DNA of 64,000 nt. Source: Tenacibaculum sp. 190130A14a. GTDB taxonomy: Bacteria > Bacteroidota > Bacteroidia > Flavobacteriales > Flavobacteriaceae. This document shows positions 23,140 through 25,042 of the stretch, in pieces (the first letter of the stretch is position 1; each line of letters starts with the position of its first letter). The DNA is taken from the NCBI RefSeq assembly GCF_964048965.1, contig NZ_OZ040189.1, forward strand, positions 1-64,000, read 5' to 3'. A program made the translations under genes and the position numbers. The notes under the pieces were generated by a model. It saw nothing but the letters and a program-made list of their open reading frames with translations, ran no database searches and was not told where the DNA came from.

Positions 23140-23809
23140 AAAAACTAGAATACTAATTGTAGACGATCATCAATTAATAATTGAAGGAATTTTATCTTAT
23201 TTGAAAGAAATTGACGGTTTAGACATTGAAACCGCTTCTTCTTGTGACGAGGCTTTCTCTAAAATAAAAGCCAATCAAGCTATCAATCCCTTTCATATTT
23301 TATTTACCGATTTAAGTTTTGACAACACCACAGAAAACTCTGTTTTAGATGGAGGTGAAGCATTGATTAATGCAATTCAGCAAGCTGAAATTCCAGTTAA
23401 AACTGGTGTAATTACCGGACATTTTGAAACCAACAGAGTGTATAATGTAATTCACAACTTAAACCCTTCTGCTTATATATTAAAAGGAAACTGTAATACC
23501 AATGAATTGCGATTTGCCATTCAAAAAATGTTGGCAAATGAGGTGTATTACACCCACGAAATTCACCAAAAACTTTTAAAAAGAGCCCTCATAGAAATTC
23601 AAATGGATGAAGTGGCTATTCAAATTTTAAAAGAACTTCCTAAACATGCTAAAATTAGCAATATGGAAGGAGTAATTACCAAAGCAGATGGTACACCTAT
23701 TAAAGGAAGATCTATAGAAAGTAAATTAGCTAAATTAAGAACCGATTTAAATGCTGTAAACAATACCGACCTGGTATTAAAAGCAAAAGAACTGGGTATT
23801 TTAGACTAA
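23132..23809 (+). CDS. NarL-like response regulator
   Basis: This 225-residue regulator has a receiver domain with the acidic pair DDH (11-13), phosphoacceptor Asp60 in ILFTDLSF, and a late Lys in YILKG. After a linker the C-terminus ends SIESKLAKLRTDLNAVNNTD then LVLKAKELGIL, which parallels the recognition part of LuxR/NarL helix-turn-helix domains (normally TVxxHLxxIxxKLxVxNRT). The domain has an unusual insert (KADGTPIKG) before that helix. The stop codon is followed one base later by the first of the boxes described below, so those boxes are its probable binding sites. Confidence 0.88.
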   Translation: MPEKTRILIVDDHQLIIEGILSYLKEIDGLDIETASSCDEAFSKIKANQAINPFHILFTDLSFDNTTENSVLDGGEALINAIQQAEIPVKTGVITGHFETNRVYNVIHNLNPSAYILKGNCNTNELRFAIQKMLANEVYYTHEIHQKLLKRALIEIQMDEVAIQILKELPKHAKISNMEGVITKADGTPIKGRSIESKLAKLRTDLNAVNNTDLVLKAKELGILD

Positions 23810-23810
23810 A

Positions 23811-23877
23811 TTGCGGAAAACCACATTTTAAGATTCGGACATCCCTTTTCTTAACCATATAAAAGCCCATACATTTG
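23811..23877 (+). promoter_or_regulatory. Unit A operator/promoter (two boxes plus -7)
   Basis: Box 1 is TTGCGGA (23811-23817) and box 2 is ATTCGGA (23833-23839), exactly 22 bases apart and followed by CATCCC. The -7 element TACATTTG (23870-23877) begins 37 bases after the start of box 2. Two turns of helix between boxes and this distance to -7 suit an activator dimer binding upstream of RNA polymerase. Confidence 0.75.
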
Positions 23878-23883
23878 TATCAG

Positions 23884-23970
23884 AATTATTTGTCACTTGG
23901 GAAAAGTTCTGAAAAAAAAAGGGAAAAAAAAGACTAAAAGCCTTTTGAGTTAAACTCAAAAGGCTTTTTT
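23884..23970 (+). ncRNA. Unit A putative small RNA
   Basis: A predicted transcript of about 85 bases runs from just after the -7 element to a strong terminator. It has no credible open frame. It contains the short stem AGAA/TTCT presenting TTGGGAAAA in the loop, then a second GGGAAAA. The same stem-and-GGGAAA layout recurs in unit A' with changed bases. The start is inferred from the -7 position. Confidence 0.55.
23936..23970 (+). terminator. Unit A terminator
   Basis: AAGCCTTTTGAGT and ACTCAAAAGGCTT pair perfectly around TAA and are followed by a T run. Confidence 0.92.
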
Positions 23971-23988
23971 AATACCTAAAATTACTCC

Positions 23989-24055
23989 TTGCGGAAAACT
24001 GCAATTCATTCTTCGGACATCCCTTTTCTTAAAAAACAGATCCCTTATATATTTG
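23989..24055 (+). promoter_or_regulatory. Unit B operator/promoter
   Basis: TTGCGGA (23989) and CTTCGGA (24011) are 22 bases apart, with CATCCC after the second box and a TATATTTG -7 element at 24048-24055, again 37 bases after the start of box 2. Confidence 0.75.
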
Positions 24056-24061
24056 TAACCA

Positions 24062-24141
24062 TCCAGCCAATAGTAATGTTGGTTTAGGGTAATTTAAGGG
24101 GAAAAAACAAACTTCTAGGAGACTAGAAGTTTTGTTGTTTT
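24062..24141 (+). ncRNA. Unit B putative small RNA
   Basis: A predicted transcript of about 80 bases has no open frame. It shows a small stem (CCAA/TTGG), then TTTAGGGTAATTTAAGGGGAAAA in short steps, carrying two GGG-A motifs in single-stranded sequence, and a terminator stem AACTTCTAG/CTAGAAGTT. Unit B' keeps the same order with a differently paired stem, which supports an RNA role. Confidence 0.55.
24109..24141 (+). terminator. Unit B terminator
   Basis: AACTTCTAG and CTAGAAGTT pair around a GAGA loop and are followed by TTTGTTGTTTT. Confidence 0.85.
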
Positions 24142-24170
24142 ATACACCTCCCTTTTTATAAATTTATTTC

Positions 24171-24237
24171 TTGCGGATTTTTACTTTTTAAGTTGCGGAA
24201 ATCCCCTTTATAAAACTCAAAAACGCTCATACATTTG
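24171..24237 (+). promoter_or_regulatory. Unit C operator/promoter
   Basis: Both boxes read TTGCGGA (24171 and 24193), 22 bases apart; the second is followed by AATCCCC. The -7 element TACATTTG is at 24230-24237, 37 bases after the start of box 2. Confidence 0.77.
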
Positions 24238-24289
24238 CAGTGTTCAATTGAACAAAAGGGGAAAACATACATTATAAAAATTAGTAAAA

Positions 24290-24391
24290 ATGGGGAAAAC
24301 TTTACTTACAAAAACAACAGGAGCTTTTAATACTTTATTATCAACTTTAGCAGAATTTGGTAAAGGTGCTAGTTACGCTTTAAGACACTAA
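24290..24391 (+). CDS. 33-residue peptide, copy 1
   Basis: The frame starts MGKTLLTKTTGAF and ends LLSTLAEFGKGASYALRH. Its last 18 residues are identical in the second copy 594 bases downstream, while the first 15 differ at several positions, which indicates selection on the protein. The peptide is cationic with an amphipathic helical middle and no signal peptide. The leader holds a GTTCAATTGAAC hairpin followed by AAAAGGGGAAAA, and the start codon lies in AATGGGGAAAA, so the same motif recurs at the start site. The function is unknown. Confidence 0.78.
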   Translation: MGKTLLTKTTGAFNTLLSTLAEFGKGASYALRH

Positions 24392-24410
24392 AAAAACACC
24401 GAAGTTAGAT

Positions 24411-24477
24411 TTACGGAAAACCACATTTTAATCTTCGGTTATCCCGTTTTTTAAACTTTAATACCCAACTATATTTG
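24411..24477 (+). promoter_or_regulatory. Unit A' operator/promoter
   Basis: TTACGGA (24411) and CTTCGGT (24433) are 22 bases apart. The -7 element TATATTTG is at 24470-24477, 37 bases after the start of box 2. The boxes are the most diverged of the six. Confidence 0.72.
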
Positions 24478-24483
24478 TAACGG

Positions 24484-24567
24484 AATTATTTGTTATTCGG
24501 GAAAGATTCTAACAAGAAGAAAAAAAGACTTTGAAGCCTTTTGAGTTAAACTCAAAAGGTTTTTTTT
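24484..24567 (+). ncRNA. Unit A' putative small RNA
   Basis: This is the duplicate of unit A, with GGAATTATTTGT, CGGGAAAGATTCT and the same terminator stem (CCTTTTGAGT/ACTCAAAAGG). Only one GGGAAA motif is kept. No open frame is present. Confidence 0.53.
24535..24567 (+). terminator. Unit A' terminator
   Basis: CCTTTTGAGT and ACTCAAAAGG pair around TAA, followed by eight or more T. Confidence 0.9.
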
Positions 24568-24583
24568 ATGACTAAAATGTATT

Positions 24584-24650
24584 TTACGGAAAACCACATT
24601 TTAACCTTCGGACATCCCTTTTTCAAAAGAAAATAACTCTTATATATTTG
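24584..24650 (+). promoter_or_regulatory. Unit B' operator/promoter
   Basis: TTACGGA (24584) and CTTCGGA (24606) are 22 bases apart; CATCCC follows. The -7 element TATATTTG is at 24643-24650, 37 bases after the start of box 2. Confidence 0.75.
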
Positions 24651-24656
24651 CCACTC

Positions 24657-24737
24657 ACAAACCAACCATAATTTTGGTTTAGGGGAATTTTTTAAGGGGA
24701 AAACAAACTTCTAGGAAACTAGAAGTTTTGTTGTTTT
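24657..24737 (+). ncRNA. Unit B' putative small RNA
   Basis: This is the duplicate of unit B. A stem AAACCA/TGGTTT replaces the CCAA/TTGG stem, followed by two GGGGAA motifs and the terminator stem AACTTCTAG/CTAGAAGTT with a GAAA loop. No open frame is present. Confidence 0.55.
24704..24737 (+). terminator. Unit B' terminator
   Basis: AACTTCTAG and CTAGAAGTT pair around a GAAA tetraloop and are followed by TTTGTTGTTTT. Confidence 0.85.
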
Positions 24738-24763
24738 ATACACCTAGTAATCAATTATTTAAT

Positions 24764-24831
24764 TTGCGGATTTTTCCTATTTAATTTGCGGAAATCCCCT
24801 TGTACAAACCTTAAAAGCTGCCGTATCTTTG
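24764..24831 (+). promoter_or_regulatory. Unit C' operator/promoter
   Basis: Both boxes read TTGCGGA (24764 and 24786), 22 bases apart, with AATCCCC after the second. The -7 element TATCTTTG is at 24824-24831, 38 bases after the start of box 2. Confidence 0.76.
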
Positions 24832-24883
24832 TAATGTTCAATCGAACGAAAGGGGAATTATTAATTTTAAATTTTATGTAAAA

Positions 24884-24985
24884 ATGGGGAAAATTTTACT
24901 TAAAAAAACTGCAAGTGTATTAAACGATTTATTATCAACTTTAGCAGAATTTGGTAAAGGCGCTAGTTACGCTTTAAGACACTAG
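24884..24985 (+). CDS. 33-residue peptide, copy 2
   Basis: This frame begins MGKILLKKTASVLND and ends in the same LLSTLAEFGKGASYALRH as copy 1. The leader repeats the hairpin GTTCAATCGAAC plus GAAAGGGGAA, and the start codon lies in AATGGGGAAAA. Third-position changes in the shared part (for example GGT/GGC for Gly) with unchanged residues support a real coding gene. It ends the two-fold cassette and is followed by a strong terminator. Confidence 0.78.
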   Translation: MGKILLKKTASVLNDLLSTLAEFGKGASYALRH

Positions 24986-25004
24986 TAAGAACTATTAAAG
25001 GGGT

Positions 25005-25042
25005 AAAAACCGTCTTGATAAATTTATCAAGACGGTTTTTTT
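25005..25042 (+). terminator. Terminator after unit C'
   Basis: A palindrome beginning AACCGTCTTGAT, with the complementary arm ATCAAGACGGTT, is followed by a T run. It closes the small-transcript region before glpK. Confidence 0.92.

Follow-up and report, generated by a model that had tools for sequence, protein, structure and literature searches.

Directly downstream of a sensor kinase and response regulator gene pair, Tenacibaculum sp. 190130A14a carries a tandem array of six small transcription units, in the order A-B-C-A'-B'-C', that share one promoter signature. The array lies in a window comprising bases 1-64000 of the single 3,936,153-base contig of this genome (3.94 Mb; G000 in our genome set). 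As judged from the sequence, the locus appears to make several terminator-ended sibling small RNAs under this signature, and we consider it on balance probable that the array is the output module of the two-component system, with RNAs that would pair at CCCC blocks near start codons and block translation. The initial annotation of the window had proposed a two-component small RNA/peptide system, and comparison speaks for that proposal, through the position of the units in 47 of 59 orthologous loci, two further strong promoter sites and selection on the encoded peptide. That annotation did not mention the GGGGA motif common to the RNAs, the targets at start codons, either of the distant regulon members or the conservation of the system.

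The six promoter blocks occupy positions 23811-24831 of the plus strand, as established by reading and pattern matching, and the first bases of their TNCGG motifs stand at 23812, 23990, 24172, 24412, 24585 and 24765. Each promoter has two CGGA-type boxes with a spacing of 22 bp and a TAnnTTTG element 37 bp further on (38 bp in C'), all of which agrees with the initial description; the block from TNCGG to TTTG measures 66 bp in five units and 67 bp in C'. The TAnnTTTG element corresponds to the sigma-A box given in the cited passages of the Flavobacterium psychrophilum transcriptome paper (PMC9723704). The duplication of the A-B-C set, put earlier at about 595 bp, was measured as 600 bp for A-A', 595 bp for B-B' and 593 bp for C-C', and the first box, beginning at 23811, is indeed separated by a single base from the regulator stop codon (23807-23809). 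TTNCGGA-like boxes are present as proposed, but that description of them had to be revised: box 1 is an inverted repeat, TGCGGAAATCCACA, which is the top-scoring dyad centre within the promoter block, and box 2 is better written as TGCGGA-N2-TCCC. Complementarity within the promoter dyads was at or below the column expectation at nearly all positions, and because the dyad columns show no such excess, the dyad form is a matter of the consensus only.

This promoter signature is rare in the genome outside the array. The strict pattern TNCGG-N17-TNCGGNNATCCC-N18..30-TANNTTTG has 7 matches in the genome, 6 of them in the array, and its reversed counterpart has none; a looser pattern gave 8 matches against 1 for the reversed control. 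A 66-position sequence model of the promoter block, trained on 62 sites, gave 9 matches in the same genome at an expectation value (E) <= 0.05, of which 8 were placed. The strong sites thus number eight, six in the array and two distant, and the set, which had been confined to the six units of the array, has to be widened by two. Across 97 genomes (this one included) the strict pattern occurs in 10, all under one genus label, and in 0 of 39 genomes from other families of the same order. At E <= 0.05 the 66-position model has matches in 49 of the 58 genus genomes, a number of them weak.

Orthologous loci were collected in one scan with an alignment of 20 regulators, which yielded 65 loci from named genomes, mostly Tenacibaculum and Polaribacter; six of these (L096-L101) are distant matches, and the counts below use the 59 loci L037-L095. 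A scored unit begins 3-27 bases past the regulator stop in 47 of the 59, the same layout beside orthologous regulators that the initial annotation had suggested looking for. Among the other 12, the first box is visible by eye in 9; it is not seen in L050 and L094, and the sequence of L093 ends there. In the outgroup loci L085 and L086, which have no scored array, a perfect palindrome, TGCGGTAATCCGCA, follows directly after the regulator stop and is perhaps the ancestral regulator site. The kinase gene was recovered by tblastn from 54 of the 59; glycerol kinase turned up in 25, and some loci are incomplete. When 760 kb of related loci were scanned on both strands with a weight matrix built from 55 non-redundant sites, 162-168 sites emerged, a partly circular count as some training sites come from the scanned loci; one strand of single-base shuffled DNA gave 0. 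The catalogue held 175 units, rising to 216 with added genomes, and among the 168 units scoring at least 25 the TAnnTTTG element stands at offset 0 in 159 and at +1 in 9. The automatic unit labels are wrong in places, at least for P of L042, next to a run of N, for C of L069, for the opening unit of L055 and for the incomplete last unit of L061.

Array size varies from one unit, through A-B-C, to the 14-15 units of G002 and G003, in which B often alternates with C; Polaribacter loci, L063 and L068 have a single A-type unit each. In loci of T. dicentrarchi, T. finnmarkense and T. piscium (L063, L064, L065, L068, L118) the stretches examined contain A-type units only. Four loci (L055, L058, L060, L061) have several units about 2.8-5.9 kb away from the regulator gene.

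The non-coding nature of the A and B units was borne out. Read by eye for ATG (GTG and TTG starts lay outside the scope), RNAs A, A' and B' contain none, and the sole ATG of RNA B meets a stop three codons later. The terminators ascribed to these units were also recovered, the terminator scan having plus-strand hits downstream of B, A', B' and C'; for A it lists the hairpin at 23936-23968 on the minus strand only, a T run also standing at its plus-strand end. In all the scan gave 8 hits over both strands, 2 of which are promoter boxes; 0.9 would be expected. A-type RNAs open with a hairpin, CAGAAUU..AAUUCUG in several species, that encloses UUGGG(G)AAAA; a purine-rich stretch and the terminator come next. 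B-type RNAs have a 5' hairpin of variable sequence, a conserved AUUUAAGGGGAAA and the terminator. The GGG(G)A core is common to A, B and C RNAs: in A the GGGA lies inside the hairpin, and in B the AAGGGGA lies mostly outside hairpins, the AAGGGG stretch being largely unpaired in the folds of B and B'. In a second group (G035; for example L055, L058, L060, L061, L066, L067 and L069) the B core reads UUUUAGGGGAUUA.

Comparative evidence for RNA structure is clearest in the terminators, where compensatory changes affect 8 of 11 pairs in B (22 sequences) and 9 of 14 pairs in A (17 sequences). RNAalifold did not predict the 5' hairpins of A and B. The 5' helix of A, checked by hand in 17 sequences, is 85% paired, and 3 of its 6 pairs are altered on both sides. 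At least as many changed pairs arise in 6 of 500 shuffles, and at least the same paired percentage in 152 of 500. No array RNA matched Rfam at the curated cut-off, the sole match in the window above cut-off being a tRNA. The strongest of the weak matches in the array, the Bacteroides small RNA BTnc005 at 34.9 against a cut-off of 174.8 bits (23847-23969), was rejected as one that probably reflects composition and terminator likeness.

The C-type RNA has a short hairpin and AAGGGGAA, followed by a peptide frame, and in C' a repeat of AAAGGGGU precedes the terminator; the first C unit (24172) has no terminator of its own in the scan. Each of C and C' encodes a peptide of 33 amino acids, as described earlier, in frames at 24290-24391 and 24884-24985. 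Comparison of 42 distinct 99-nucleotide (nt) frames, coding for 39 distinct peptides with the consensus MGk.Ll.k........l..LaE.GKGAsYAl.H, gave ratios of the proportions of nonsynonymous to synonymous differences (pN/pS) of 0.18 in 15 pairs with at least 90% identity, 0.28 in 29 pairs with 80-90% and 0.39 in 110 pairs with 70-80%. In the other two frames pN exceeds pS (pairs at 70-90% identity). Because pN/pS is low in the peptide's own frame and pN exceeds pS in the others, the C peptide is very likely translated and under purifying selection. Its charge is +2 to +6, and it is amphipathic, often but not always beyond shuffles. No family in Pfam or NCBIfam matched it, and a role at the membrane or in signalling would be a guess.

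We looked for candidate targets in 20 hand-picked genomes, 13 with the array and 7 controls, in which the regulator is accompanied by a single unit with a different RNA. The best case is the arginase-family gene (PF00491): in all 13 array genomes (10 of 10 after dropping three genomes where the gene was first noticed) CCCC lies no more than 35 nt ahead of the ATG, against 0 of 7 controls. Background for CCCC near starts was 0 of 61 in the window's own genome; in a sample of 273 starts from G003 it was 6, against 3 and 3 at two control positions, and TCCCC occurred 6 times at starts against 1 and 1 at control positions. The arginase leader matches the RNAs of its own genome over 8-12 contiguous bp including GGGG in 10 of 13 array genomes (12 bp in G003 and G035; 11 in G002, G045 and G027; 10 in G028; 9 in G000, G049 and G055; 8 in G022), against 5-7 bp in controls, and each of these matches was equalled by at most 8 of 200 shuffles. 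Contiguous runs were used as the measure after full-length duplex energies had proved too noisy. In G035 the seed (UUUAGGGGAUUA) and the target both deviate from those of the other genomes and match over 12 bp, a single example. Of the 9 copies of TTTAAGGGGA in the genome, 3 fall within array RNAs; among the 6 non-array sites no sense copy in another mRNA leader was convincing, and one is antisense, five bases upstream of the ATG of a 65-amino-acid MARAM- gene. Near the ATG of that gene stands CCCC in 11 of 13 array genomes and CCC in the other two (G035, G049); the 5 controls in which the gene was seen have no CCCC there.

In F. johnsoniae, according to the cited passages, initiation is favoured by adenines upstream of the start codon and makes no use of Shine-Dalgarno sites (PMC6847099). 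Since adenines are favoured there, a CCCC block beside the ATG is unusual and, if paired, should repress. Matches to TCCCCTTA-N0..12-ATG in four array genomes include recurring orthologues, namely the arginase-family gene (G002, G003, G045), a DUF1800 gene and an MKRR- gene (both in G002 and G003) and a lipocalin-like gene (G000, G003). Near the ATG, the DUF1800 gene has CCCC in 4 of 4 genomes (G002, G003, G035, G045) and the MKRR- gene in 3 of the same 4, both genes having been noticed via G002 and G003. Two starts in G003 with TCCCC nearby (L293 +8054 and L307 -14443) are possible further targets; they belong to what we take to be a universal-stress-protein-like gene and a heme-NO-binding-like gene, respectively.

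Several observations weigh against the proposed mode of action. The pattern TCCCCTTA-N0..12-ATG gave 60 matches against 46 for the reversed control, a mild excess, so that most of its matches are chance. CCCC near the MARAM- start also occurs in three genomes without a clear array (G025, G031, G033), and in array genomes this gene pairs over at least 9 bp in only 4 of 13 (G000, G002, G003, G028). In three others (G008, G017, G018) the arginase leader has CCCC without a good match to the RNAs examined. In G000, 2 of 61 unrelated starts equal the score of the arginase-family gene, and 0 of 61 that of the MARAM- gene; whole-duplex energies are unremarkable in many genomes. When own RNA-target pairs were compared with swapped ones, 586 and 1482 of 5000 permutations were at least as good, which is not significant; swapping did not significantly lower the scores, a negative result for coevolution. 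Array and control genomes were, moreover, hand-picked and split along the tree, and 13 of 13 versus 0 of 7 is therefore not independent evidence. Finally, the 5' hairpin of A is only moderately supported by the alignment.

The two distant promoter copies would extend the regulon. One precedes an unannotated B-type RNA; single B-type units are also found in L012, L015, L025, L029, L035 and L147, the downstream sequence being alike in several. The other stands ahead of a gene for a small winged-helix-like protein, and in nine genomes (the window's own, G002, G003, G022, G027, G035, G045, G049 and G055) this promoter lies about 19-23 nt upstream of a protein of 88-93 amino acids; G027 has two such copies, and the promoter of G035 scores weakly (14.8). 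The structural model of the protein has a mean predicted local distance difference test score (pLDDT) of 87 and the order HHH-EE-HH, and the structures that it matches best in the PDB are those of winged-helix proteins (F93 of Sulfolobus turreted icosahedral virus, PadR-like), at E 2.2e-3 and above and a template modelling (TM) score of about 0.6. It matched nothing in NCBIfam and, above cut-off, nothing in Pfam; from the model, it is likely to be a nucleic-acid-binding regulator.

Of the two-component genes, the kinase gene overlaps the regulator gene and codes for a protein with, by eye, a signal-peptide-like start, one membrane helix and a HisKA_3-like H-box (HisKA_3 itself falling under the Pfam cut-off). 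The regulator had been called NarL-like, and a fold search agrees, with spr1814, LiaR and RcsB as best PDB matches across about 220-230 columns; less can be said for its DNA-binding half, where model confidence is low (pLDDT about 48-71) and Pfam gives a sub-threshold DUF5932 match only and no GerE-type match. Its nearest named relatives are Tenacibaculum proteins.

Table. Features of the array, its neighbourhood and the distant promoter copies (positions in the window unless prefixed by C1 or given as loci; RNA ends are predictions where so marked).
Feature	Position	Strand	Description
Promoter A	23811..23877	+	box 1, box 2, TACATTTG
Promoter B	23989..24055	+	sequence and pattern match
Promoter C	24171..24237	+	sequence and pattern match
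Promoter A'	24411..24477	+	sequence and pattern match
Promoter B'	24584..24650	+	sequence and pattern match
Promoter C'	24764..24831	+	TAnnTTTG shifted 1 base downstream
RNA A	23878..23970	+	ends predicted; 5' hairpin CAGAAUU..GUUCUG enclosing GGGAAAA, purine-rich stretch, terminator hairpin; z -4.6
RNA B	24056..24142	+	ends predicted; 5' hairpin, AAUUUAAGGGG mostly unpaired in fold, terminator 24109-24132; z -4.3
RNA C	24238..24391	+	5' hairpin, AAAAGGGGAAAA, peptide open reading frame 24290-24391 (MGKTLLTKTTGAFNTLLSTLAEFGKGASYALRH)
RNA A'	24478..24567	+	ends predicted; terminator 24533-24563; z -2.3
RNA B'	24651..24738	+	ends predicted; UUUUUUAAGGGGAAAA, terminator 24705-24728; z -3.2
RNA C'	24832..25040	+	5' hairpin, AAAGGGGAA, peptide open reading frame 24884-24985 (MGKILLKKTASVLNDLLSTLAEFGKGASYALRH), AAAGGGGUAAAAACC, terminator 25005-25040
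Sensor histidine kinase, 650 amino acids	21187..23139	+	TPR repeats, HATPase_c (Pfam)
Response regulator, 225 amino acids	23132..23809	+	REC domain (Pfam) and NarL-like C-terminal domain; presumed activator
Glycerol-kinase-like gene	from 25104		after the array; FGGY domains (Pfam)
Promoter of orphan B-type RNA	C1:3363947-3364012	-	upstream of unannotated RNA, beside DUF1456 gene
Promoter of winged-helix-like protein	C1:1526546-1526611	-	19 nt ahead of ATG of 92-amino-acid protein
Small winged-helix-like protein loci	L149 (own); L137, L138, L140, L141, L143-L146		unannotated family

In the mechanism that we favour, the TPR sensor kinase would phosphorylate the NarL-like regulator, dimers of which would occupy the two dyads of each promoter, about two helical turns apart, and the six sigma-A-type promoters would fire simultaneously. 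Their output would be the small RNAs A and B and a related mRNA, C, for a cationic amphipathic peptide of 33 amino acids. To judge by the comparison of genomes, the GGG(G)A core would pair with CCCC shortly before start codons, with the arginase-family gene as the best case, and the paired mRNAs would lose translation; tandem duplication would increase the dose of RNA and peptide. Because the same promoter precedes the orphan B-type RNA and the winged-helix-like gene, one signal would jointly set the RNA layer, the peptide and a transcription-factor-like protein. Binding and activation by the regulator, pairing in the cell, repression, the role of the peptide and the signal to the kinase are points that we infer from sequence. 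One might speculate further, improbable as it is, that the array is a copy-number-tunable module with a double output of RNA and peptide and a dedicated GGGG-to-CCCC code at start codons, in a phylum that initiates without Shine-Dalgarno sites, and that the co-made peptide signals back to the presumably periplasmic TPR domain of its own kinase, which would make the array a peptide-sensing circuit of the Bacteroidota.

A NarL-family regulator (GacA), multiple small RNAs (RsmX/Y/Z) and repeated GGA-type motifs are also the ingredients of the Gac/Rsm systems, and CsrA-sponge RNAs carry ANGGA motifs in hairpin loops. The array RNAs might, in this style, be decoys whose GGG(G)A titrates an RNA-binding repressor of mRNAs such as C. 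In keeping with that, a NarL-like regulator adjoins several small RNAs, and GGGA is found in the A hairpin and AAGGGGA between the B hairpins and in the C leader, in the same sense in B and C. However, CsrA (PF02599) was found in 0 of 58 genus genomes, in a search for this one family of RNA-binding proteins that was positive in 3 of 14 control genomes, and since it is missing in all 58 a Csr sponge is unlikely. Decoys would, moreover, leave the start-codon CCCC pattern unexplained, and the array RNAs, unlike those of Gac/Rsm, match start regions. We regard decoy action of any kind as unlikely. Regulation of the Hfq type was rejected as well, Hfq not having been found in the window's own genome, the one genome searched for it. 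The boxes might instead bind a regulator other than the neighbouring one, the two-component genes being linked to them by position alone. Adjacency is indeed the main link, and in the four loci with units some kilobases from the regulator gene even this is loosened, but the close succession of regulator stop and first unit in 47 of 59 loci, with a box seen in 9 of the remaining 12, speaks against an unrelated regulator, and the promoter dyads presumably fit a NarL-type dimer. We give this explanation little credence.

It is about equally improbable that the array exists for its peptide, membrane-active or signalling, and that the non-coding units are decayed or leader-like copies within an expanding gene family for it. 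Purifying selection, the several copies per genome (L150, L151) and the cationic, mostly amphipathic sequences would suit such a history; the peptide is, however, absent from the units of Polaribacter and several Tenacibaculum loci in the stretches examined, A or B units outnumber C by 158 to 48 among 216 (by automatic labels, some of them wrong), and the core motif and terminators of the non-coding units are conserved. An arrangement like a type I toxin-antitoxin system, with toxic C peptides under the control of A and B RNAs, seems very improbable: a small peptide does adjoin small RNAs, and B and C often alternate (L150, L151), but the array units stand on one strand behind like promoters, and B carries, by eye, the same-sense motif as the C leader and not its complement.

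If the array is the output module that we propose, a two-component system would work through a tandem small RNA/peptide array in a genus without CsrA (58 of 58 genomes), Hfq being missing in the window's own genome. It would also suggest a simple code for choosing targets, in which GGGG of the RNA faces CCCC ahead of the start codon; such a code would suit mRNAs that lack Shine-Dalgarno sequences. As arrays range from 1 to 14-15 units among related species, the dose of a small RNA could be studied in natural variants. Flavobacteria are abundant in the sea, and in the open-licence PMC literature we came across no account of a two-component system that works via small RNAs in them. A search of titles and abstract openings in the same literature, which leaves subscription journals and preprints uncovered, found no publication on the array system. 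The initial view that the system is new to the literature thus holds for this system, but not for its kind, because sibling RNAs under one regulator are described for CiaR and its small RNAs (PMC4507080).

Within the phylum, the transcriptome of F. psychrophilum offers 45 non-antisense independent RNAs for discussion, among them Rfp18 (PMC9723704). Rfp18, a small RNA conserved in flavobacteria, has predicted mRNA targets like the array RNAs; unlike them, and as far as its description in the cited passages goes, it comes with no mention of a tandem array, a two-component link or a peptide (PMC9723704). The nearest multicopy RNA family that we found in the phylum, again compared by description, is FopS/GibS of Bacteroides thetaiotaomicron, marked by a conserved R1 seed and RbpB binding. 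It binds around start codons and has 14 FopS paralogues that are intergenic, antisense or in 3' untranslated regions; these have canonical promoters and may answer to an unknown regulator (PMC11697453). The cited passages on FopS mention no tandem array or cognate two-component system (PMC11697453). Closest in working mode is CiaRH of Streptococcus pneumoniae, in which, according to the cited passages, one regulator drives five similar small RNAs (csRNAs) of 87-151 nt that act additively, with a pairing region that matches ribosome-binding sites and start codons and with the ccnAB genes in tandem (PMC4507080). Sibling small RNAs, as read from the sequence, are common to both, and the array RNAs may likewise pair at start regions. 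Unlike the csRNAs, which belong to a Firmicute, the array belongs to a phylum without Shine-Dalgarno use (PMC6847099) and would set a GGGGA core against CCCC; it lies beside its own kinase-regulator pair, reaches 14-15 units, and has one peptide-coding type among its three types of unit. By this analogy, the array resembles a tandem, peptide-coding version of the CiaR-csRNA kind.

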